From the IMG/VR virus record IMGVR_UViG_3300031857_000010, positions 124,001 to 188,000 of that record: DNA of 64,000 nt; one strand, written 5' to 3'. The stretch comes from a virus. Under the pieces are notes generated by a model. It was given only the letters and a program-made list of their open reading frames with translations. It did not search any database and was not told the origin of the DNA. Shown one piece after another: positions 20,251-54,356 of this stretch (position 1 is its first letter; every line of letters starts with the position of its first letter). Both the position numbers and the translations under genes were made by a program.

Positions 20251-22698
20251 TCAAAATTTATACCTTAAGTTAACTGAAAAATCTTGACCCAACCTATAGT
20301 AGTTTGAAACAACATAACCAGAATCAGAATTTTGAATAAATTCATATTTTGCATTTAATAAATTATTGATTCTCAATGAAATAGAGTACTTATTTTTTTC
20401 AATATTATAGATTAAATTTAAAAAGTTTTGTGGTATTTGATAAATATCACCGAGTCCAAAAACACCTACTGCGTTAAGTTTTTTACCTATGAAATTATAA
20501 GTTATTCCAATGTTGTTGTTTTCATTAATTGAATAAAATAAATCAGCATTAGATAGTATTGGCGAAGATCCTTGCAATGGTCTTTTTAAATTACTTACAA
20601 CAACTGTAGAATTACCTTCATTAGAAATAATTATTTGAGACCATAAGACGGATAAATTATAGTCTATTATAAACTTATTAATTCTCTTTTTTATTTCAAT
20701 TTCTCCACCAAAAACATTTGATCTTTCACTATTTTGAAAAGTTTCCAATCTACCACTTGCGGTAGCGATATTAACTCTTTCTATTGGATTATCTATTGTT
20801 TTACTAAATAAAGCTATTGAATAAATTTGGTTATTAGATGGATAAAACTCATAACCTAAATCAAAATTAATGACTTTAGAAACTGTAAGATTTGGATTGC
20901 CTTGAATTTTAGAACCTGCAAAAACTTCAGTATATATAAAAGGAACAGTTTCTCTAAATCTTGGTCTTATATTAGTGATTGAAGCGACAAACTTTAATTG
21001 TTTTTTGTCATTTATTCTATATTTTATTGATAAGAATGGAAGTAAATCTAAATTATCTATTTTATTATTTTTCAAAAATACTGGTGAAAGTTGATCTCTG
21101 TAATTTACTACTTGTTCTACATCTTCAACTCTTAATCCATAACTTAAATCAGTTTTATTACTGTTAAAATTAGATTTAATAAAAAAACCATTAATATTTG
21201 TGTATCCTTCTGTTTTTGAAGCTGGATTATTAACCCATAATTCTGTAGTTTGATCACTATTAAGATATTGATTTGGATTGGAAGGATCAATGTATCCATA
21301 AATTGAATTTATTTTTCCTAAATCATAATATTTTTGTTTATAATCAAATAAATTTCTAGAACTTAAATAACTGTATCCAAAATAGTGATCTAATTTTTTT
21401 CCTTTATGAGAAATTGTAAAATTAAAATTTATCGTGTTTTCTCTGTTTGTGTTCCAGAAAATGTGATTGTCGAGTTTATCTATGTTATTAAATGAATATT
21501 GACCATCATATAGGTAAACAAACTGTTCTCTTGCACTTTCTCCACTTTCCACTAAAGAAAATCCTCCTATACCATCTATTGTCCAATTTCCTAATCTATA
21601 ATTTGCATTTATTTGATCGGTAAATAAAGAATGTGAAAATGGTGTGTTTCTGGTTGTAAAAATATCTTTACTATAATCAAAATGAGTTCCAAATGTTTCT
21701 CTGTAAAGTGTGTTTTTTTGATTTATATATAATGAGGTATTTTTTATACTAAAATTTTTTGATTCATGGTGTAAAACAAAAATACCAGAGGGAGTAAATT
21801 GGTTTATCCTGTCTTTAAATTTATAGTCGAGAACATAATTTCCTTGTTTATTTATTAATCTTAGTATTCCATCTAAATTTTGATTATCATTTATTAAGTT
21901 TAAATTGAGATAGTAGCTTAATTTTTTGTTTTCTTTTCCTATCTGAAAATTAAAATTGTAATTAGGGGTGGGTGTCAATGAGTTTAAAGAACCCCTTAAA
22001 GAAACACTTTTTATTGTTTTTATTTCACTAGTTAAAATATCAATTTGAGCACCACAAACATTTCCCCATTGATCTGAAGAATATGTTTTCCTAATCTTCA
22101 TATTATCCATAATTCCAACAGGTAAAATATTTAAATCAATATTCTTTTTATCTGCATTGTTGGATGGAATTGGAATTCCATTAAGGGTTACTTGATTATA
22201 TCTATCGTCAAGACCCCTAATATTTAATTTAGAATTTGTAAATGATATGCCCGACACCTTTTTTAACCCATCTTCTGCATTTGAAATCCCTTTTCTGGTC
22301 ATTTCTGAAGATCCTATTGAAGACTCAATGCCATTAGCATTTTTTTTATCCATTAAAAGTATAGTTTCTGAAGAATTATTCTTTTTAGCTGATATCTCAA
22401 CTTCATTCATAGAAACAGATTTCGATTTTAATATAATATTAAATTGATTGTTGTTTGCATTTATTTTCTGTTCTTCAAACCCAAGACAATAAAAAACAAT
22501 CAAAGATTCATTTGATTTTATTTTCAAATAAAAATTACCATCGAAATCTGTTTGAGTTCCGTTTTGAGTATTTTCTTCAATTATAGAAACAAAAGGTAGT
22601 GGTTGATTTGATTCATCCACTACCTTTCCTTTTATTTCTTGACTAAATGCTTGAGTAAAACTTACAAATAAGTAAATTAATATGATTATTGCTCTCAT
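20251..22698 (-). CDS. TonB-dependent outer membrane receptor (815 aa)
   Basis: The signal peptide begins at MRAIIILIYLFVSFTQAFS; this start at 22698 is preferred over an ATG six codons upstream because it lies 2 nt after the preceding stop. An N-terminal carboxypeptidase-regulatory-like domain (about 22-100: GKVVDESNQPLPFVSI, GTQTDFDGNFYLKI) is followed by the plug (about 115-230: DGLKKVSGISF, LNIRGLDDRYNQVTLNGIPIP) and a long beta-barrel to the terminal RYKF. It would import a ligand using TonB energy. No SusD partner is present; instead a beta-helix lipoprotein gene precedes it. This is typical Bacteroidetes host machinery and atypical phage cargo. It may supply a nutrient or modify receptor availability (inference). 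Confidence 0.93.
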   Translation of the reverse strand: MRAIIILIYLFVSFTQAFSQEIKGKVVDESNQPLPFVSIIEENTQNGTQTDFDGNFYLKIKSNESLIVFYCLGFEEQKINANNNQFNIILKSKSVSMNEVEISAKKNNSSETILLMDKKNANGIESSIGSSEMTRKGISNAEDGLKKVSGISFTNSKLNIRGLDDRYNQVTLNGIPIPSNNADKKNIDLNILPVGIMDNMKIRKTYSSDQWGNVCGAQIDILTSEIKTIKSVSLRGSLNSLTPTPNYNFNFQIGKENKKLSYYLNLNLINDNQNLDGILRLINKQGNYVLDYKFKDRINQFTPSGIFVLHHESKNFSIKNTSLYINQKNTLYRETFGTHFDYSKDIFTTRNTPFSHSLFTDQINANYRLGNWTIDGIGGFSLVESGESAREQFVYLYDGQYSFNNIDKLDNHIFWNTNRENTINFNFTISHKGKKLDHYFGYSYLSSRNLFDYKQKYYDLGKINSIYGYIDPSNPNQYLNSDQTTELWVNNPASKTEGYTNINGFFIKSNFNSNKTDLSYGLRVEDVEQVVNYRDQLSPVFLKNNKIDNLDLLPFLSIKYRINDKKQLKFVASITNIRPRFRETVPFIYTEVFAGSKIQGNPNLTVSKVINFDLGYEFYPSNNQIYSIALFSKTIDNPIERVNIATASGRLETFQNSERSNVFGGEIEIKKRINKFIIDYNLSVLWSQIIISNEGNSTVVVSNLKRPLQGSSPILSNADLFYSINENNNIGITYNFIGKKLNAVGVFGLGDIYQIPQNFLNLIYNIEKNKYSISLRINNLLNAKYEFIQNSDSGYVVSNYYRLGQDFSVNLRYKF

Positions 22699-22699
22699 T

Positions 22700-23851
22700 C
22701 TATTTCGTCCAACCATTCATCCAAGCATTACCTGATCCAACATTTGAATCTTGAATGAACCAAGAATCGTTTAAAGTGGCTGTTAAACCAGCAAAAGAAT
22801 TACAATCTTTAAAATCAGTACCATTTCCTGATATGATAGAATTTGCAACAAATAATTCACCAGTTGTAATGTGATTAAGGGTTGTTTGCTCGCTAACTCT
22901 TACTCCATATTTAGCAAAACCAGTAACATTTGCATAAAATATTTTACCCTTTGTTCCTTCTCTTAGTCTAATTCCTTCATTTAATCCATCTCCATCATTA
23001 ACACCATTTAATGTTATATTTGATAATGTTGGTTCTGAATAAGGAGAAGCTGTATTATCATCTCCATTATTATCCGCTTCAATACCTCTATCACCACCAT
23101 CTATACCTTGTTGCACAAACCAATATTGACCTTTTCCTCTCCATCCATGAGTCCAATCAAAAGAATCATCTTGATTCTCCGTTGAAACTGCATATCTTAT
23201 ATTTAATGTTCCTCCAAACAATTCGATTCCATCATCAGAACCCCTATATGCCTGTATGTATTCAACAATTGTACTTGATCCAACCCCATTAAAAGAAAAT
23301 CCATTTAATTCATTATCTGTTCCAAGTATTTTACCAGCATATTCGACTCTTATATATTTTAAAATTCCGGAATTGTCTTGATCGTTACTTCCTCCATAAA
23401 CACCTGTACCCCCTTCGCCTTCTGCAGTTAGACCAGTGTTTATGTCAGCATATCCATTGACAATTATTCCTCCCCAATCACCATAGGTAGGATTGCTTTT
23501 TAATGGTGTGAAAATTATAGGATTAGTACTAGAACCTTCTGCGAAAATTTTTGCACCTTGTTTTATTGATAAAAAGGTTGTTACAGATGGATCAGCGTAT
23601 ATTGTTTGTCCACCATTTATATAAAGTGAATAACCCTCTTCAATAAATACACCACCAGAAAGAAGCCATTTTTTAGACGAATCCAAAGTAAAATTTTCAT
23701 TTATGACACCCTCTATTTTTTGAAATAAATCTCCATTTATATTTACTTCTGTAACTATAAATGATTTATTTTCTGGAATTTGATTATCGTCTTTTTTGCA
23801 AGACGTAACAAGTACAGCGAATGCTGTAATAATAAATAATAGTTTTTTCAT
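22700..23851 (-). CDS. Secreted beta-helix-like lipoprotein, TonB-receptor partner (383 aa)
   Basis: A lipoprotein signal ends at VTSC (Cys17), so it should be anchored in a membrane, in Bacteroidetes often the outer leaflet. The body is Gly/Asn/Asp-rich with regular short strands (TFLSIKQGAKIFAEGS, GDWGGIIVNGYADI, ILKYIRVEYAG, EYIQAYRGSDDGIELFGG), consistent with a right-handed parallel beta-helix, plus many acidic turns that could bind calcium. It is translated 1-2 nt before the TonB receptor, indicating an operon and a joint surface function. A promoter is expected in 23852-23970. Confidence 0.85.
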   Translation of the reverse strand: MKKLLFIITAFAVLVTSCKKDDNQIPENKSFIVTEVNINGDLFQKIEGVINENFTLDSSKKWLLSGGVFIEEGYSLYINGGQTIYADPSVTTFLSIKQGAKIFAEGSSTNPIIFTPLKSNPTYGDWGGIIVNGYADINTGLTAEGEGGTGVYGGSNDQDNSGILKYIRVEYAGKILGTDNELNGFSFNGVGSSTIVEYIQAYRGSDDGIELFGGTLNIRYAVSTENQDDSFDWTHGWRGKGQYWFVQQGIDGGDRGIEADNNGDDNTASPYSEPTLSNITLNGVNDGDGLNEGIRLREGTKGKIFYANVTGFAKYGVRVSEQTTLNHITTGELFVANSIISGNGTDFKDCNSFAGLTATLNDSWFIQDSNVGSGNAWMNGWTK

Positions 23852-29043: not shown

Positions 29044-29120
29044 TACTCCCAAAGGGAATCGAACCCTTATGTGACCAATTACCCTTTCTACTGTGTATAA
29101 GACAGAGGGGATATGGGAGC
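29044..29120 (-). tRNA. tRNA-Ile(UAU)-like gene with displaced D-arm
   Basis: The acceptor GCTCCCA/TGGGAGT (all 7 paired, one G-U) and T-arm AAGGG-TTCGATT-CCCTT are normal. The anticodon arm CTGT-CTTATAC-ACAG gives TAT. Only 7 nt (TATCCCC) separate the acceptor from the anticodon stem, while 21 nt holding the D-loop-like TAATTGGT follow it. CCC before and GGG after the anticodon arm can pair. The layout matches the second Ile-like tRNA at 30146 with a compensatory CTC/GAG change. The 3' end of the endonuclease CDS at 29088 runs into it. Confidence 0.7.
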
Positions 29121-29774
29121 AATTATGTTTTCAATTAATTTATCATCAAAATTTTTACCTCTTATAAAAATCAAATTTATTTTATTTTGAGATGTGACTA
29201 AGTTCAATTTTATTTTATCTTCATCGCTAAAATATCCTTTAATTTCTAAATATCTGTTAAAATCCGGTAAATAAAAATCAGGAGTATAAGTCTTTTTAAC
29301 CCCGTTATTATCAACATAAGAAATATATATTTTTCTTTTCCAAATTATTTTATTCTCATTTAAAATATTTGCTACTTTCAATTCCCACGTACCCCTAACA
29401 ATAAATTTTTCATTATTTATATTGCTAACTTTATACCATTTTATATTTTTAAATCCACCTACACCTAATTCTTCCAAGTTTTTAGACCTAGCCAAAGAAA
29501 GTTTTTCTTTTTGTTCATTGGAAATTTTTTTACCCTTATGCTTTAATCCTATTTTTTTCTTAATTTCATCAGTTAAAATATAATCGACTCCTTTTTTTCT
29601 TGTTTTATCCCATTGGTTTACTGGTTTTTTTATTATTCCATCTTTTACTTTTTGATTATAAATTTCAAAATTACTTTTACGAATTACTCTATTTGGGTTT
29701 AATTTACATGTTTTTTGGTGTGAAATTAAAGAACCTTTATTCGTTATTTCTCTATCACAAAAAATACAATTCAT
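29088..29774 (-). CDS. Homing-type endonuclease, zinc finger + NUMOD3 + PD-(D/E)xK (228 aa)
   Basis: The N-terminal C2H2-like finger CIFCDREITNKGSLISHQKTC (in part, residues 3-23) is followed by a NUMOD3-like helix pair (KKKIGLKHKGKKISNEQKEKLSLARS, about 75-95). A nuclease core follows: YTPDFYLPDFNRYLEIKGYFSDEDK (about 165-190), where D...ExK is the PD-(D/E)xK signature of the EDxHD/very-short-patch-like phage homing nucleases. The last ten codons (APISPLSYTQ) are read from the acceptor and anticodon region of the tRNA-Ile-like gene, so the gene abuts and overlaps its probable target. It is likely a free-standing mobile endonuclease inside the tRNA array. Confidence 0.85.
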   Translation of the reverse strand: MNCIFCDREITNKGSLISHQKTCKLNPNRVIRKSNFEIYNQKVKDGIIKKPVNQWDKTRKKGVDYILTDEIKKKIGLKHKGKKISNEQKEKLSLARSKNLEELGVGGFKNIKWYKVSNINNEKFIVRGTWELKVANILNENKIIWKRKIYISYVDNNGVKKTYTPDFYLPDFNRYLEIKGYFSDEDKIKLNLVTSQNKINLIFIRGKNFDDKLIENIIAPISPLSYTQ

Positions 29775-29813
29775 CTTTTTTAATTATAAATATTTTATAT
29801 AATTAAATTTTGA

Positions 29814-29892
29814 GCCGATGGAGGGACTCGAACCCCCGGTGTTTGTGTTCCAGTTTACAAAACTGGTGCTGTCGCCACTGAGCCACATCGGC
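29814..29892 (-). tRNA. tRNA-Thr(UGU)
   Basis: The acceptor is GCCGATG/CATCGGC, the D-stem GCT/AGC, and the anticodon arm CCAGT-TTTGTAA-ACTGG (anticodon TGT). The T-arm has TTCGAGT. The variable region is 12 nt (AACACAAACACC), longer than the usual 4-5. No CCA is encoded. Confidence 0.88.
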
Positions 29893-29901
29893 AATAATAA
29901 G

Positions 29902-29973
29902 TTCATCCAGAGGAAGTCGAATTCCCATCTTCTGGTTCGTAGCCAGATATTCTCTCCGTTAAACTACAGGTGA
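29902..29973 (-). tRNA. tRNA-Arg(ACG)
   Basis: The anticodon arm is TCTGG-CTACGAA-CCAGA (anticodon ACG, expected to be deaminated to inosine by host TadA). The acceptor TCACCTG/TGGATGA has one mismatch, the D-stem is GTTT/GAAT, the T-loop TTCGACT and the discriminator A. It lies 9 nt from tRNA-Thr. Confidence 0.85.
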
Positions 29974-29980
29974 ATTTTTG

Positions 29981-30054
29981 TACCCCCAGTGGAAGTCGAA
30001 TCCACAAACACCAGATCCTAAGTCTAGCCGCTTTGCCAGTTTGCGTACAGGGGC
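29981..30054 (-). tRNA. tRNA-Leu(UAG) with short variable arm
   Basis: The acceptor is GCCCCTG/TGGGGGT, the D-stem CGC/GCG, and the anticodon arm CTAGA-CTTAGGA-TCTGG (anticodon TAG, reading CUA). The T-arm is GTGGA-TTCGACT-TCCAC and the discriminator is A. The variable region is only 5 nt, whereas leucine tRNAs normally have a long variable arm. Confidence 0.85.
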
Positions 30055-30060
30055 ATTTTA

Positions 30061-30134
30061 TGGAGGTAGGAGATGGGATCAAACCATCGTAGAAGGTTTT
30101 GCAGACCTCCACCTAGTCACTCGGTCATCCTACC
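30061..30134 (-). tRNA. tRNA-Cys(GCA), CCA encoded
   Basis: The acceptor is GGTAGGA/TCCTACC with discriminator T, a cysteine identity element. The anticodon arm is GAGGT-CTGCAAA-ACCTT (GCA), the D-stem ACC/GGT, and the T-loop TTTGATC. It is the only tRNA in the array with a genomically encoded CCA end. Confidence 0.9.
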
Positions 30135-30145
30135 TTACATTATTG

Positions 30146-30222
30146 TTGGGATGGAGGGGATCGAACCCACATGTCACCAATTACTCTTTCAACACGTTAT
30201 CAGCGTGAGGAGATACAACCCA
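30146..30222 (-). tRNA. tRNA-Ile(GAU)-like gene with displaced D-arm
   Basis: The acceptor TGGGTTG/CATCCCA has one T-T mismatch; the T-loop is TTCGATC. The anticodon arm CACG-CTGATAA-CGTG gives GAT. As in the gene at 29044, only TATCTCC precedes the anticodon stem, and a 21-nt segment containing TAATTGGT follows it. CTC and GAG can pair around the arm, co-varying with CCC/GGG in the other copy. The arms appear in the order acceptor, anticodon, D-loop, T. Confidence 0.7.
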
Positions 30223-30283
30223 ATAAAGAAATATTTTGCGTAAAGTATCAGAAATTAATACTTTCTGCAAAAAATTTATTTTG

Positions 30284-30356
30284 ATGTCCCAGCTGGAATC
30301 GAACCAACATCATCAGAGTCAAATTCTGATATAATTAACCGTTATACTATAGGACA
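30284..30356 (-). tRNA. tRNA-Gln(UUG)
   Basis: The acceptor is TGTCCTA/TGGGACA. The anticodon arm TCAGA-ATTTGAC-TCTGA gives TTG. The T-arm is GTTGG-TTCGATT-CCAGC. The D-stem is weak. The 60-nt spacer on its 3' side holds an AAAGTAT/ATACTTT hairpin that may guide processing. Confidence 0.87.
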
Positions 30357-30370
30357 ATATAATATTAGAG

Positions 30371-30440
30371 TGGGATAGGAAGTAATCGAAACTTCGCACC
30401 TATGATTTACAGTCATTGTGAACTCCCCGGTCTCTATCCC
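30371..30440 (-). tRNA. tRNA-Tyr(GUA)
   Basis: The acceptor is GGGATAG/CTATCCC with discriminator A. The anticodon arm ATGA-CTGTAAA-TCAT gives GTA. The T-arm is GAAGT-TTCGATT-ACTTC. The variable region is short, unlike the long-arm bacterial tRNA-Tyr. Confidence 0.85.
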
Positions 30441-30449
30441 AGATATTTG

Positions 30450-30524
30450 TACTCCCGACGGGACTCGAACCCGCAATGACCACCTTGAAAGGGTGGTGAC
30501 TTAAACCAATTTGTCCACAGGAGC
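30450..30524 (-). tRNA. tRNA-Glu(UUC)
   Basis: The acceptor is GCTCCTG/CGGGAGT, the D-stem GAC/GTC, and the anticodon arm CCACC-CTTTCAA-GGTGG (TTC). The T-arm is GCGGG-TTCGAGT-CCCGT and the discriminator A. The cloverleaf is canonical. Confidence 0.93.
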
Positions 30525-30530
30525 ATTAAG

Positions 30531-30611
30531 AGCGAGTAGAGAGAATCGAACTCTCATCTCTGGTTTGGAAGACCAGCATAATTTACTTTCGTTCCACTAT
30601 ACGATACTCGC
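30531..30611 (-). tRNA. tRNA-Gly(UCC) with enlarged D-arm
   Basis: The acceptor is GCGAGTA/TACTCGC with discriminator T (typical of Gly). The anticodon arm is CTGGT-CTTCCAA-ACCAG (TCC) and the T-arm GAGAG-TTCGATT-CTCTC. About 28 nt lie between acceptor and anticodon stem instead of 19, so the D-arm is expanded. Confidence 0.87.
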
Positions 30612-30663
30612 AATTGTGCCAACATGTCAAAGAACAACAACAGATACTCATGTTGTTTTATTG

Positions 30664-30738
30664 TTGCGGGAATGGGAATCGAACCCATGTGATTCAGCTT
30701 ATGAGACTGAGCTGGAACCATCTCCAGTCCATCCCGCA
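30664..30738 (-). tRNA. tRNA-Met(CAU) or Ile2
   Basis: The acceptor is TGCGGGA/TCCCGCA, fully paired, so it is not an initiator. The anticodon arm TCAGT-CTCATAA-GCTGA gives CAT. The D-stem is CTGG/CCAG and the T-arm ATGGG-TTCGATT-CCCAT. If C34 were lysidinylated it would read AUA; this cannot be told here. Confidence 0.88.
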
Positions 30739-30747
30739 ATTTTTAGG

Positions 30748-30820
30748 AGGAGCTACCGAGCTTTGAACTCGGGACTTAACATTGCAAATGTTATGTGTTC
30801 GCCATCTATACCATAGCCCC
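30748..30820 (-). tRNA. tRNA-Ala(UGC)
   Basis: The acceptor GGGGCTA/TAGCTCC carries G3-U70, the alanine identity pair. The anticodon arm is TAACA-TTTGCAA-TGTTA (TGC), and the T-arm CCGAG-TTCAAAG-CTCGG. The discriminator is T rather than the usual A. Confidence 0.9.
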
Positions 30821-30824
30821 ATTG

Positions 30825-30900
30825 TCTGGTAAGCCGGACTCGAACCGACATCAGCTCCTACTTCCAAGGTAGGCGAGGCAACCAATTCCTCCATTACCAG
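30825..30900 (-). tRNA. tRNA-Pro(UGG)
   Basis: The acceptor is CTGGTAA/TTACCAG, the D-stem GAGG/CCTC, and the anticodon arm CCTAC-CTTGGAA-GTAGG (TGG). The T-arm is GTCGG-TTCGAGT-CCGGC and the discriminator A. Confidence 0.93.
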
Positions 30901-30905
30901 TTTAG

Positions 30906-30978
30906 CGGTCTATGAGAGAATCGAACTCTCACCACCCGATAGACAGTCGGGTATCCTTAGCCGTTGGACCAATAGACC
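30906..30978 (-). tRNA. tRNA-Asp(GUC)
   Basis: The acceptor is GGTCTAT/ATAGACC with discriminator G, an aspartate identity element. The anticodon arm is CCCGA-CTGTCTA-TCGGG (GTC; base 37 is T, unusual), and the T-arm GAGAG-TTCGATT-CTCTC. Confidence 0.92.
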
Positions 30979-30990
30979 TTTTTTACTTTG

Positions 30991-31065
30991 TGTACCCGGA
31001 GAGATTCGAACTCTCGACTCCTGCATTAAAAGTGCAGTACTCTAATCCAGCTGAGTTACGGATAC
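30991..31065 (-). tRNA. tRNA-Lys(UUU)
   Basis: The acceptor is GTATCCG/CGGGTAC, the D-stem ACTC/GAGT, and the anticodon arm CTGCA-CTTTTAA-TGCAG (TTT). The T-arm is GAGAG-TTCGAAT-CTCTC and the discriminator A. The cloverleaf is canonical. Confidence 0.95.
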
Positions 31066-31205
31066 ATTTTGAATGCACCCGTAGGCACATTCAGTTATTT
31101 ACGTTTTCGTTTTAATTTATTTTTTGTTTTCATTTCATTTCCAGTTTTCTGGGGACTGAGCCCAGCAGGTATTTGACTCAGCCCCCAACATCATCATTTT
31201 TTTTG
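31066..31205 (-). other. Structured spacer inside tRNA array
   Basis: This 140-nt stretch lies between tRNA-Asn and tRNA-Lys. It holds two hairpins on the minus strand, one with arms GGGGGCTGAG / CTCAG-CCCC-type complement near 31150-31190 and one TGAATGTGCC-TACG-GGTGCATTCA at 31070-31093. Only a 12-codon Lys/Arg-rich frame lies between them. It may be a degenerate tRNA, a processing signal or a small RNA. Confidence 0.45.
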
Positions 31206-31278
31206 CGGGGAATGTGGGCAACGATCCCACACCCTTCTGCTTAACAGGCAGTTGCTCTTCCACTTGAGCTTCTTCCCC
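31206..31278 (-). tRNA. tRNA-Asn(GUU) with atypical T-loop
   Basis: The acceptor is GGGGAAG/ATTCCCC (6 of 7 paired), the D-stem GCTC/GAGC, and the anticodon arm CTGC-CTGTTAA-GCAG (GTT). The discriminator is G, as expected for Asn. The T-loop reads ATCGTTG instead of TTCRANN, so T54 and A58 are lost. Confidence 0.85.
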
Positions 31279-31284
31279 CCTTTG

Positions 31285-31357
31285 TGGAACCGGAGGCTTT
31301 CGAGTCCTCGACCTTTGGATTTTCAGTCCAACGCTCTTCCATCTGAGCTACGGTTCC
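31285..31357 (-). tRNA. tRNA-Phe(GAA)
   Basis: The acceptor is GGAACCG/CGGTTCC, the D-stem GCTC/GAGC, and the anticodon arm TTGGA-CTGAAAA-TCCAA (GAA). The T-loop is CTCGAAA (T54 replaced by C) and the discriminator is A. It is the first tRNA of the array after the terminator at 31369. Confidence 0.93.
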
Positions 31358-37130: not shown

Positions 37131-37418
37131 TTATTTTTTATTATTATATCTTGATGAACCGAATAAAATACCTGAACCTAAAACAAATCCAAAGTCATAC
37201 CAGCCACCATTGTTATTTAATGCATACATTGCAATATCATCCCATATAAGACTCCCAATAAAGGACCAAGGAGAAATAAACCCATGCCATAAACCACCCC
37301 AAAAACCATATGGTTCATCTTTTATACATTCGTTTACGATTGTTACATCTGCACAAGACGATAATGCAAATATAATAATAAATAAAATAAATAATTTTAT
37401 GTTCATTGCTTTTTTCAT
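37131..37418 (-). CDS. Conserved lipoprotein with membrane-like patches (95 aa)
   Basis: A lipoprotein signal ends at LSSC (Cys22 or nearby). The body has the pattern FWGGLWHGFISPWSFIGSL and NNGGWYDFGFVLGSGI, shared by a widespread bacterial family of unknown function. It is probably acquired from a bacterial host. It overlaps the aminotransferase gene by 4 nt, so they share a transcript. Confidence 0.8.
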   Translation of the reverse strand: MKKAMNIKLFILFIIIFALSSCADVTIVNECIKDEPYGFWGGLWHGFISPWSFIGSLIWDDIAMYALNNNGGWYDFGFVLGSGILFGSSRYNNKK

Positions 37419-38524
37419 ATTTTATCTAAGAATTTTGTAAATTTTTCATAGGGTACAGATACACATATTCTAGAGTAAGAAGACCATATATCTTTATCGT
37501 GATAAACAAATTTATCTAAACCGACAGCACCAATTTTATTTTGAAATAGAAAATCTTCCGATTTGTTTATAACAGCAAATATTCCTAAAGGCTTTTCAAT
37601 CTCTCCATAAATTTCTTTAACCAACAAGCCTCTATCATATAAATAATTAATATTCATTTCTATGTGTTTTGTTGTTTCATTTCTGAAATCATCCAAAACT
37701 TGTCTTCCTCCTTTAGTTTCTAATATTCTTTCAATAATCAATTGGGGTGGAGATGAAACAGCATTAAATTCATAAAGCAATCTAATGTTTAATTCAGCAT
37801 TAAAATCTTTATTGTTACAAAAAATGAAACCCATTCTAAGTCCGGATAATCCTATCCATTTTGAAAAAGATTCAGTTATAATTACATTATCTAAACTTGA
37901 CAATATATTAAACATTCTATCATCAGAAAAAAGTTTTCTATACGGACTATCAAATATAATTATCGCACCTGTTGAGTTTATTTTATAGATACTCTCATAA
38001 AGAAAATCATCTTCTAATTTTATTCCTGTAGGATTATTTGGATCGCAAATAAAAATACAGGACGATTCATTTAATTTTGAAATATCTAAATCATTTAAAG
38101 AGTCATAGAATGAAAATTTTTTATTTCTTATAGTGGCCATTTTTGAGTAAGAACCCCAATAGAATTTTGGAAAATAAATATTTTCTACATTTAAAATTTG
38201 AATTGCTAAGTCTATTGCTGGCATTCCACCGGGAGTAATAGCAATTTTATTTAAAATATCTTCTTCCCTGTATCTGGTAGGAAAATATTCTTTTGCTATG
38301 GCCTGTCTAAAAGATTCAATTCCTAAATTAGGTGCATACACTTGAAATTCTTTTGAATTATAATTTATTGTAGGATATATACATGATAAATTAATTTCTG
38401 TTACTGCATTAACACCACGATTAAGCTCCAAATATTCTTTCCCTGAATCCTTAGATGCTTTTTTAACTTTTTGACCAATACCCACTATTGAAGAAAATGT
38501 AGCATTTGAGATGTTAATTTTCAT
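37415..38524 (-). CDS. Class I/II PLP-dependent aminotransferase (369 aa)
   Basis: PLP-binding features are in order: CDPNNPTG (residues 160-167), FDSPY with D192, the Schiff-base lysine K222 in SFSKWIGLSGLRMGF, and the phosphate-binding R230. The N-terminal PGGMPAIDLAI helix follows. The size is slightly shorter than typical aspartate or histidinol-phosphate aminotransferases. The substrate is unclear; a sugar or amino-acid transamination for nucleotide or surface modification is possible. The end overlaps the lipoprotein start by 4 nt. Confidence 0.88.
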   Translation of the reverse strand: MKINISNATFSSIVGIGQKVKKASKDSGKEYLELNRGVNAVTEINLSCIYPTINYNSKEFQVYAPNLGIESFRQAIAKEYFPTRYREEDILNKIAITPGGMPAIDLAIQILNVENIYFPKFYWGSYSKMATIRNKKFSFYDSLNDLDISKLNESSCIFICDPNNPTGIKLEDDFLYESIYKINSTGAIIIFDSPYRKLFSDDRMFNILSSLDNVIITESFSKWIGLSGLRMGFIFCNNKDFNAELNIRLLYEFNAVSSPPQLIIERILETKGGRQVLDDFRNETTKHIEMNINYLYDRGLLVKEIYGEIEKPLGIFAVINKSEDFLFQNKIGAVGLDKFVYHDKDIWSSYSRICVSVPYEKFTKFLDKI

Positions 38525-51956: not shown

Positions 51957-54356
51957 TTATTTACTTAATATTTTTAAAACTTTTAATATTGAATCTGGTG
52001 TCACAGAAATACTATCTATACCCTCTTCAACCAGAAACTTTGCAAATTCAGGAAAATCAGATGGTGCTTGACCGCAAATTCCAACTTTAGTGCCGGTTTT
52101 TTTACCAACTTTTATAAGATGAGATATAGCTCTTTTTACTGCAATATTCCTTTCATCATAAATGTGAGCGACTAATGCAGAATCCCTATCCAACCCTAAA
52201 ATTAATTGAGTTAAATCATTAGACCCTATTGAAAAACCATCTATATGTTCGGCAAATTCCTCAGCCATAAATATATTAGATGGAAGTTCAGCCATTAAAT
52301 AAATCTCTAGACCCCTTTCACCTCTTTTAAGCCCATACGATTCCATTACCTTATAAACTTTTAGTAATTCCTCTACTGTTCTACAAAATGGGATCATAAT
52401 TACAACATTGGTTAAACCCATTTTTTCCCTTACTCTTTTTAGGGCTTTTAATTCCATACCAAATGCCTCTTTGTATTCAGTGGAATAGTATCTTGAAGCA
52501 CCTCTCCAACCTATCATAGGGTTTTCTTCTTTCGGCTCAAAATAAGTACCTCCTAATAAGTTTTCATATTCATTGGATTTAAAATCTGATAATCTTACAA
52601 TTACTTTATTCGGATAAAATGCTGTAGCAATTTTTGCTATACCATAAGATAATCTTTTAACAAAAAAAGTTTCTTCATCATCATACCCCCTTATTGTTTT
52701 TTCAATTTCATTTGTAAGATTTTCATCACCAATTTGCTTATGTTTTAGAAGAGCAAGTGGATGTACCTTTATATAATTATTAATTATAAATTCTTCTCTG
52801 GCAAGTCCTACACCTGAATTTGGTAGATGTGAAAATTTAAAAGCTATATCCGGAGATGCAACATTTAGCATTATGGGTGTCTTAACCTTGGGCAGATCAT
52901 CAAGGTTTGTTTCTATTTTTTCATAATCTAAAAACCCTTCGTAAACAAATCCAGTATCACCCTCACTACATGATACAGTGACCTTTTGATTATTTTTAAT
53001 TATATCTGTGGCATTTCTACACCCTACTATTGCAGGTAAACCTAACTCTCTGGCAACTATTGCAGCATGACAAGTTCTACCACCTTTGTTAGTAATGATT
53101 GCAGAAGCTTTTTTCATAATTGGCTCCCAATCAGGATCTGTCATATCTGTTACCAAAACTGAACCCTCAACAAATTCAGAAGCATCAAAAGAACCATCTC
53201 TACCATCTAATGAGAACATAATTGTTGCTTCTCCAGAGGCAACCCCGTCTCCAACTGCTATGCCTTTTATTAATGGATTTTGACCTTCTGAATTAATATT
53301 ATATTCTACTAAAGTTCTATTTCTTTTTTGAGAATGAATTGTCTCTGGTCTTGCCTGAACTATATAAAGTTCCCCCGTTAATCCATCTATAGCCCATTCA
53401 ACATCAACAGGACACCATTTATTTTTCAATTTTGAATAGTATCTTTCTATTGAACTAACCCACTTTGCTATCTCTAATACTTGTTTATCAGTTATGCAAA
53501 AATTGTTTTTTTGATCATCGCTTACTTGTATTGTTTTTGTAAGTTTACCATGATCTTCACCATAAATCATTTTTTTATCCTTAAATCCAAGTTTCTTTTC
53601 TATGATTGAAGAATATCCCTTTTCCAACAAAGGTTTAAAAACAATAAATTCATCAGGTGATATTGCACCTTGAACAACCATTTCACCTAGACCATATGAA
53701 CCATTAATTAGTATCACATCTTTAAAACCACTTTCTGTATCTAATGAAAATGCAACACCAGATGAAGCTAAATCTGAACGAACCATTTTTTGTACACAAA
53801 CAGAAAGACCTACATTAAAATGATCATATCCAAAAGTGTTTCTGTAAGATATTGCTCTATCTGTGAATAAAGATGCAAAACAATTTCTTACAGCCTCTAT
53901 TATTGATTCTATTCCTCTAACATTTAAAAATGTTTCTTGTTGACCCGCAAAAGAAGCATCGGGTAAATCCTCAGCTGTTGCGGATGATCTGACTGCAACA
54001 TCTGTCATTTCTTGATCATATTGCTTTGACAACTCTAAATATTTTTCTTTTATTTCATTTTTTAATTCCTCCGGAAATTCTCCATTTCTTATTATTTGTC
54101 TAACCTGAGATCCAACTTTTCTTAACTCTATTATATCTGAGTCATTTAAATTTGAAACTAAATCTTTTATCTTTTTATCCAGTTTATTATGTGTAATATA
54201 ATCAAAATAACCTTTAACATTAATTGCAAAACCATTAGGTACTTTTATATTCATAGAATTAAGGTTTTGCAACATCTCTCCTAAAGAAGCATTTTTGCCA
54301 CCAACTAAATTAATGTCGCCTAATGAAACTTTGTTCAAATCAATAGTGTATTTCAT
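51957..54356 (-). CDS. ppsA: Phosphoenolpyruvate synthase (799 aa)
   Basis: The reaction is pyruvate + ATP + H2O to PEP + AMP + Pi. All three domains are complete. The ATP-binding N-domain has GGKNASLGEM (19-28), VRSSATAEDLPDASFAGQQETFLN (122-145) and PVDVEWAIDG. The swivelling phosphohistidine domain has GGRTCHAAIVARELGLPAIVG with catalytic H430. The C-terminal barrel has IGSNDLTQLILGLDRDS and the general-acid C761 in VGICGQAPSD. The length matches cellular enzymes. It could drain pyruvate into PEP for gluconeogenic, aromatic or cell-wall precursors, or bypass host glycolytic control (inference). A hairpin terminator upstream separates it from the gene at 54457. Confidence 0.96.
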   Translation of the reverse strand: MKYTIDLNKVSLGDINLVGGKNASLGEMLQNLNSMNIKVPNGFAINVKGYFDYITHNKLDKKIKDLVSNLNDSDIIELRKVGSQVRQIIRNGEFPEELKNEIKEKYLELSKQYDQEMTDVAVRSSATAEDLPDASFAGQQETFLNVRGIESIIEAVRNCFASLFTDRAISYRNTFGYDHFNVGLSVCVQKMVRSDLASSGVAFSLDTESGFKDVILINGSYGLGEMVVQGAISPDEFIVFKPLLEKGYSSIIEKKLGFKDKKMIYGEDHGKLTKTIQVSDDQKNNFCITDKQVLEIAKWVSSIERYYSKLKNKWCPVDVEWAIDGLTGELYIVQARPETIHSQKRNRTLVEYNINSEGQNPLIKGIAVGDGVASGEATIMFSLDGRDGSFDASEFVEGSVLVTDMTDPDWEPIMKKASAIITNKGGRTCHAAIVARELGLPAIVGCRNATDIIKNNQKVTVSCSEGDTGFVYEGFLDYEKIETNLDDLPKVKTPIMLNVASPDIAFKFSHLPNSGVGLAREEFIINNYIKVHPLALLKHKQIGDENLTNEIEKTIRGYDDEETFFVKRLSYGIAKIATAFYPNKVIVRLSDFKSNEYENLLGGTYFEPKEENPMIGWRGASRYYSTEYKEAFGMELKALKRVREKMGLTNVVIMIPFCRTVEELLKVYKVMESYGLKRGERGLEIYLMAELPSNIFMAEEFAEHIDGFSIGSNDLTQLILGLDRDSALVAHIYDERNIAVKRAISHLIKVGKKTGTKVGICGQAPSDFPEFAKFLVEEGIDSISVTPDSILKVLKILSK

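Follow-up and report, generated by a model that had tools for sequence, protein, structure and literature searches.

The window analysed here (the whole stretch of 64,000 nucleotides, bases 124001-188000 of a 216.7-kb virus record that includes a large-terminase match) contains a minus-strand tRNA array at 28.96-31.36 kb. Within this array lie two 77-nt elements in which an initial annotation, made from sequence alone, had seen tRNA-Ile genes with internally rearranged arms. The question raised by this locus is whether these elements are tRNAs in which one D-stem strand and the D-loop follow the anticodon arm. Both elements were present, at 29044-29120 and 30146-30222, and both are encoded on the minus strand. 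The reported spacings, helix strands (CCC/GGG and CUC/GAG) and isoleucine anticodons (TAT and GAT) were all confirmed. The gap between the acceptor and anticodon stems was exactly 7 nt (UAUCCCC in gene 1, UAUCUCC in gene 2), and the gap between the anticodon arm and the T-stem was 21 nt (AGAAAGGGUAAUUGGUCACAU in gene 1, UGAAAGAGUAAUUGGUGACAU in gene 2). The claim that acceptor and T-arms are normal held with the small qualification that gene 2 has one U-U mismatch in its acceptor and one in its T-stem; the structure imposed on gene 2 includes non-standard pairs, for which reason a comparison of folding energies under imposed structures was set aside. Read from the minus strand, the RNA of gene 1 is GCUCCCA UAU CCC CU CUGU CUUAUAC ACAG UAG AAA GGG UAAUUGGUCACAU AAGGGUUCGAUUCCCUU UGGGAGU A and that of gene 2 is UGGGUUG UAU CUC CU CACG CUGAUAA CGUG UUG AAA GAG UAAUUGGUGACAU GUGGGUUCGAUCCCCUC CAUCCCA A. 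Below, columns refer to A1, a gap-free alignment of 91 distinct Ile-type sequences, and bit scores to R1, a covariance model of the Ile set in the permuted layout, whose training set included genes 1 and 2.

29044-29120, minus strand: gene 1, permuted tRNA-Ile, anticodon UAU, 77 nt; 93.1 bits with R1
29108-29110, minus strand: gene 1 D-stem 3' strand CCC (tRNA positions 23-25), directly upstream of the anticodon arm; columns 11-13, 100% paired with columns 37-39 (n = 91)
29090-29106, minus strand: gene 1 anticodon arm, loop CUUAUAC, anticodon UAU at 29097-29099; read from the sequence, stem covaries
29082-29084, minus strand: gene 1 D-stem 5' strand GGG (tRNA positions 10-12), displaced 3' of the anticodon arm; covariation
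29072-29080, minus strand: gene 1 displaced D-loop AAUUGGUCA (A14 to A21, with G18, G19 and U20); columns 41-49, (nearly) invariant
29052-29068, minus strand: gene 1 T-arm; alignment and covariation
30146-30222, minus strand: gene 2, permuted tRNA-Ile, anticodon GAU, 77 nt; 90.2 bits with R1
30210-30212, minus strand: gene 2 D-stem 3' strand CUC; covariation
30192-30208, minus strand: gene 2 anticodon arm, loop CUGAUAA, anticodon GAU at 30199-30201; read from the sequence
30184-30186, minus strand: gene 2 D-stem 5' strand GAG, displaced; covariation
30174-30182, minus strand: gene 2 displaced D-loop AAUUGGUGA; alignment
30154-30170, minus strand: gene 2 T-arm, one U-U mismatch; sequence and R1
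29812-31357, minus strand: surrounding array of canonical Thr, Arg, Leu, Cys, Gln, Tyr-like, Glu, Gly, Met, Ala, Pro, Asp, Lys and Asn tRNAs and one more; canonical Ile absent

No better standard cloverleaf in the usual order of arms was found for either gene. ARAGORN called neither gene in the window. The Rfam tRNA model (RF00005) gave 31.4 bits for gene 1 and 22.8 bits, below the Rfam gathering score, for gene 2, and its fit required the D-arm to be skipped and 18 nt to be inserted after the anticodon arm. No Rfam 15 family other than tRNA matched at gathering score. The canonical order places a D-arm between acceptor and anticodon arm; this was not met, as only 7 nt are available there and covariation favours the other order. 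R1 scored canonical tRNAs of the same loci below 20 bits, and ARAGORN calls overlapped 5 of 336 permuted genes in the loci examined. Single-sequence folding did not favour the permuted fold (z -1.64 and +0.88), indicating that the fold must lean on tertiary contacts or modifications. A further tRNA of the window array, the Tyr-like one (anticodon GUA, minus strand, 30371-30441), has a weak D-stem and was missed by ARAGORN and at the Rfam gathering score.

Without any prior structure, RNAalifold drew the same topology (acceptor, D-stem 3' strand, anticodon arm, D-stem 5' strand plus D-loop, T-arm) for separate alignments of 91 Ile-type and 67 Arg-type sequences, the latter mostly retrieved through a different search pattern. 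In A1, the 17 highest APC-corrected mutual-information pairs were all acceptor, D', anticodon or T-stem pairs of the model, after which the score fell sharply from 0.60 to 0.27. Paired cells amounted to 97.2%, against 63% after shuffling and 40-46% with partners slid. The D' helix (columns 11-13 with 37-39), whose letters had been left unfixed in the looser pattern search, was paired in 100% of the 91 homologues and showed both-side changes at all of its pairs (15, 48 and 13 sequences), with CG, AU and UA at 11-39, UA, CG, GC and AU at 12-38, and CG, GC, UA and AU at 13-37. These results upheld the internal rearrangement of arms and the reading of CCC/GGG versus CUC/GAG as a compensatory change in a maintained helix; homologues in which this helix failed to co-vary would have refuted it and were not observed. 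Acceptor, anticodon and T stems were paired in 93.7%, 98.6% and 99.1% of cells (n = 91), also with double changes, and acceptor pair 6-71 was mismatched in 26 of the 91 sequences, mostly as U-U (19/91). The linker was one nucleotide shorter in 39 Arg genes, most of which retain a 2-bp helix.

Columns 10-13 correspond to tRNA positions 22-25, column 14 to position 26, columns 15-31 to positions 27-43 (anticodon arm), columns 37-40 to positions 10-13, columns 41-49 to D-loop positions 14-21 and column 52 to position 48. The segment of positions 10-21 therefore sits behind the anticodon arm, in an order that is not a circular permutation. The D-loop consensus AAYUGG(U/A)NA is kept beside the helix, with a pyrimidine at position 48, as are U8 and A14, and all 7-nt anticodon loops retain U33 and purine 37. 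The core of columns 41-49, and in part A14, had been fixed in the search patterns, and U33 and purine 37 were partly demanded by patterns and parser; invariance of the core bases consequently provides no independent evidence. Positions 15 and 48 (R15-Y48) covaried slightly, with C48 in 3/4 of G15 sequences (p = 1e-4, kinship not corrected). In both Ile- and Arg-type alignments, RNAalifold also drew a 2-bp hairpin UG-GUNA-CA in the D-loop segment, which cannot be judged because it is invariant.

The class proved to be widespread and to include Arg tRNAs, neither of which was within view of the initial annotation. IMG/VR, a small number of MAG contigs and cultured isolates supplied 207 distinct parsed relatives in total, nearly all of them without annotation. 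Cultured carriers were Streptomyces, Microbacterium and Xanthomonas phages and Bacteroides crAss-like phages. Queried with the 77-mers, BLAST matched Kehishuvirus tikkala and about 75 Streptomyces phages over the full length, and two crAss-like or gut phages over nearly the full length, for the most part at sites without annotation; matches in Klebsiella and Mycobacterium phages covered the T-arm region only and were dropped. A D-loop/T-arm pattern with a wholly free anticodon identified 23 IMG/VR stretches, and the looser one, which fixed neither the letters of the D' helix nor the three bases of the anticodon, gave at least 119 matches. Searches with R1 extended the set to a second Ile subfamily and to more distant relatives carrying Arg anticodons. 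Scanner false positives, such as L175:565-637 (a canonical tRNA-Glu) and L094:1375-1447, were removed by eye. Among genome assemblies, ten MAG contigs carried permuted genes; some of their neighbour proteins matched phage families, and none of these contigs was demonstrated to be phage. In 396 Bacteroidota genomes, R1 gave a single clear match, in the genome that served as centre, and four matches scoring 32-34 bits; plasmids searched with an Arg-type query gave no match.

In two permuted tRNA-Ile(UAU) genes of the second subfamily (L170:869-958 and L171:212-300), the region of the displaced D-loop is extended by a long insert that seems to form a hairpin. An odd tRNA-like element of ambiguous layout at G000:C1:204596-204671 (L175:397-472) was called Ile(UAU) by ARAGORN and scored 27.9 Rfam bits. 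One Saprospiraceae MAG contig (L141) combines 20 canonical tRNAs and two permuted Ile genes with a short TRCF-like helicase and an APP1 phosphatase. In another (L143), a permuted tRNA-Ile(UAU) at 1979-2055 lies amid chromosome-like genes (ECF sigma factor, LepA, Por secretion tail); it may be a chromosomal or integrated copy, and tilS is present in that genome.

Although the searches left the anticodon bases free, all permuted genes except one with a Val anticodon had Ile anticodons (UAU 55, GAU 30, CAU 11) or Arg anticodons (UCU 43, ACG 43, UCG 13, CCU 10, GCG 1), whereas the canonical tRNAs in the same loci covered all isotypes. The CAU genes are probably tRNA-Ile2 (lysidine), an inference based on locus L142, where GAU stands together with CAU, much as GAU and UAU occur together in the window. 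Nucleotide 20 of the displaced D-loop tracks the amino acid of the anticodon: A20 occurred in 110 of 110 Arg-anticodon genes and U20 in 82 of 85 Ile genes. Most of the Ile set was found with patterns that prescribed T20, yet no Arg anticodon surfaced in those searches despite the free anticodon; a pattern allowing any base but T at this position, again with a free anticodon, recovered permuted genes that all had Arg anticodons except one CAU gene (C20). A20 is the main ArgRS determinant and unique to Arg among tRNA families, and D20 and A73 belong to Ile identity (PMC9976931). The permuted Arg genes meet the tRNA-Arg identity set A20, C35 and U/G36 (determinants from PMC9976931), and the permuted Ile genes meet the tRNA-Ile set A73 (85/85 genes), U20, A35 U36 and A37. 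CCA was encoded in 69 of 110 Arg genes and 9 of 85 Ile genes, which is indirect evidence of function only.

The presence of a permuted gene largely excludes a nearby canonical tRNA of the same anticodon. Across 69 loci groups, each containing 10 or more canonical tRNAs, both were found in one locus 3 times versus 24.0 expected (CMH chi2 35.9, p = 2e-9), a statistic that ignores kinship among loci. No canonical tRNA-Ile was among the 13 tRNAs listed by ARAGORN for the window array. In phages Jay2Jay and tikkala, the permuted gene has anticodon GAU and the canonical Ile gene UAU. Per thousand codons, the window phage uses 39.8 AUA and 25.7 AGA; the former figure makes the demand for an AUA decoder plain. 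Streptomyces phage Yaboi (NC_048730) carries three permuted genes:

74542-74618: permuted tRNA-Ile, anticodon GAU; unannotated
86686-86763 (L303, 20687-20764): permuted tRNA-Arg, anticodon UCU; deposited as tRNA-Val(aac)
91004-91080: permuted tRNA-Arg, anticodon CCU; unannotated

In the 46 kb of Yaboi examined, the deposited annotation contains no other AGR-decoding tRNA, and the permuted UCU and CCU genes fill both positions. A canonical Ile GAU is also annotated, alongside the permuted one.

Segment order, covarying secondary structure, coupling of anticodon and nucleotide 20, exclusion of canonical tRNAs and distribution among phages were demonstrated by these analyses. The permuted genes are likely to be working Ile and Arg elongator tRNAs with a natural non-circular permutation; in the absence of RNA or structural data, their expression, charging, L-shape and decoding are inferred. 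In the proposed model, a unit consisting of the D-stem 5' strand and the D-loop would have moved from its usual site to directly after the anticodon arm. The canonical order (acceptor, positions 8 and 9, D5', D-loop, D3', 26, anticodon arm, variable loop, T-arm) would thereby become acceptor, U8 A9, D3', 26, anticodon arm, (N)GAAA, D5', D-loop, C A Y48, T-arm. Only three connections would change: 7-9 to D3', the anticodon arm to D5' via (N)GAAA, and the D-loop to position 48. Local neighbours would be kept, with D3' leading into the anticodon arm and D5' into the D-loop, so that, by inference from tRNA architecture, the D helix could stack on the anticodon stem and G18 G19 could reach the T-loop. 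The predicted outcome is the usual L-shape with other strand connections. CCA would be added by the host where not encoded, IleRS or ArgRS would charge the tRNA by reading the anticodon, A73 (Ile) and nucleotide 20, and the charged tRNA would decode the AUN or AGR/CGN codons needed by the phage.

The rival that survives best, although it is unlikely, is a D-arm-less tRNA in which the 3-bp helix merely extends the anticodon arm and the GG loop remains undocked from the T-loop, giving a shape unlike an L, as in D-armless mitochondrial tRNA-Ser. The secondary-structure data are equally compatible with this reading, the Rfam parse is that of a tRNA without D-arm, and a tRNA lacking the D-arm can function in E. 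coli translation in vitro (PMC11551756). Against it, the full D-loop consensus beside the helix is maintained together with Y48, U8 and A14 (the last partly pattern-fixed), and A20 occurs in every Arg gene, implying, without charging data, that ArgRS reads the D-loop. A D-armless tRNA would lack D-stem and D-loop; here, helix 11-13/37-39 and the D-loop motif are both present.

Non-decoding tRNA mimics, acting for example as decoys for host tRNA nucleases or as sponges for a synthetase or EF-Tu, are slightly less probable still. A role of phage tRNAs against tRNA-cleaving defences is established (PMC11555353, PMC10264068), and the coexistence of permuted and annotated canonical Ile GAU genes in Yaboi would fit such a role. 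However, permuted genes and canonical tRNAs of the same anticodon rarely share a locus, identity nucleotides agree with the anticodon, many genes encode CCA, and several Ile- and Arg-box anticodons are filled as coherent sets.

A permutation at gene level only, with post-transcriptional rearrangement of the RNA into a canonical tRNA, can be practically ruled out. Permuted tRNA genes restored by processing do exist in algae and archaea (Soma 2014, cited in PMC10085705; PMC3218864), but the 3-bp helix covaries in the encoded order and no leader or intron is needed. Circularly permuted genes have the 3' half upstream of the 5' half and termini inside an arm; in the phage genes both acceptor strands are terminal and, since the order is not a circular permutation, circularising and cutting cannot restore a canonical tRNA. 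Decayed tRNAs or assembly artefacts are virtually excluded by hundreds of independent copies, some in cultured isolates, and by strong covariation, even though relics do occur in phage arrays (e.g. L174:313-388, an apparent decayed permuted tRNA with broken D' helix and anticodon loop beside an intact copy).

The non-circularly permuted tRNA remains the preferred reading. That this is not a known tRNA gene type held in so far as no earlier description of a D-arm-transposed tRNA was found in the open-licence PMC literature searched, coverage of which was incomplete; in a 2020 review of non-canonical tRNAs, the terms 'phage', 'permut', 'swap' and 'rearrange' were all absent. Within that literature, the internal piece order is unprecedented for tRNA and represents a new topology of a tRNA whose functioning is inferred. 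Canonical bacterial and phage tRNA-Ile and tRNA-Arg (RF00005) share with the permuted class the 7-bp acceptor, the T-arm, the 7-nt anticodon loop with U33, Ile/Arg anticodons, A73 (Ile), A20 (Arg) and location in phage tRNA arrays; the permuted class differs in having the D5' strand and D-loop 3' of the anticodon arm, in lacking the usual variable loop and in being missed by gene finders. Circularly permuted tRNA genes of red algae and archaea (PMC3218864) also have an unusual segment order, but in those genes the 3' half lies ahead of the 5' half and a canonical tRNA emerges after processing, whereas the phage class has normal ends and a transposed inside. D-armless mitochondrial tRNAs and the artificial mini HisT (PMC7609411, PMC11551756) likewise have no D-arm between acceptor and anticodon arm; the phage class, in contrast, has a covarying D helix and a full D-loop elsewhere in the chain. 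The closest principle is that of the hammerhead ribozyme with non-circular permutation (Eckert 2023, PMC10085705), in which pieces are reordered non-circularly while the fold is presumably kept, although that case is a ribozyme and not a tRNA. Before that study only circular permutations were known, and it mentions tRNA solely for circularly permuted genes. A non-circular RNA permutation retains the same helices and motifs in an order unreachable by circular permutation; this is met here at the level of sequence and secondary structure, with three-dimensional positions inferred. If true, a natural and abundant permuted-D-arm class would mark the first departure from the standard order of tRNA segments, would mean that the tRNA fold is reachable through another strand path, and would imply that the Ile and Arg entries in the tRNA inventories of many phages are wrong.

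Escape from anticodon nucleases, suggested with reservation in the initial annotation, is no more than possible, and the evidence points first to ordinary Ile/Arg decoding. Nuclease-evading phage tRNAs (PMC10264068) are similarly phage-borne and may back up targeted host tRNAs, but they have canonical architecture and evade through anticodon-loop changes, whereas nuclease resistance of the permuted class is only conjectured. A bolder and tentative reading is that this widespread class keeps the L-shape by another strand topology and was favoured by selection for being left untouched by host enzymes or nucleases with specificity for the canonical D-arm or core; if true, phages would sustain Ile and Arg decoding under tRNA-targeting defence.

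The window array also contains a predicted protein-coding gene next to gene 1:

29088-29774, minus strand: endonuclease-like ORF, 228 aa, between tRNA-Thr and gene 1 (PHROG 15137 endonuclease, E 4.8e-17)

The last 33 nt of this ORF overlap the 5' part of gene 1, and similar endonuclease genes occur in other phage tRNA arrays. Elsewhere in the window, phage-borne proteins encoded at 20251-22716, 51957-54356 and 37415-38524 matched CarboxypepD_reg/TonB plug, pyruvate phosphate dikinase and aminotransferase, respectively.
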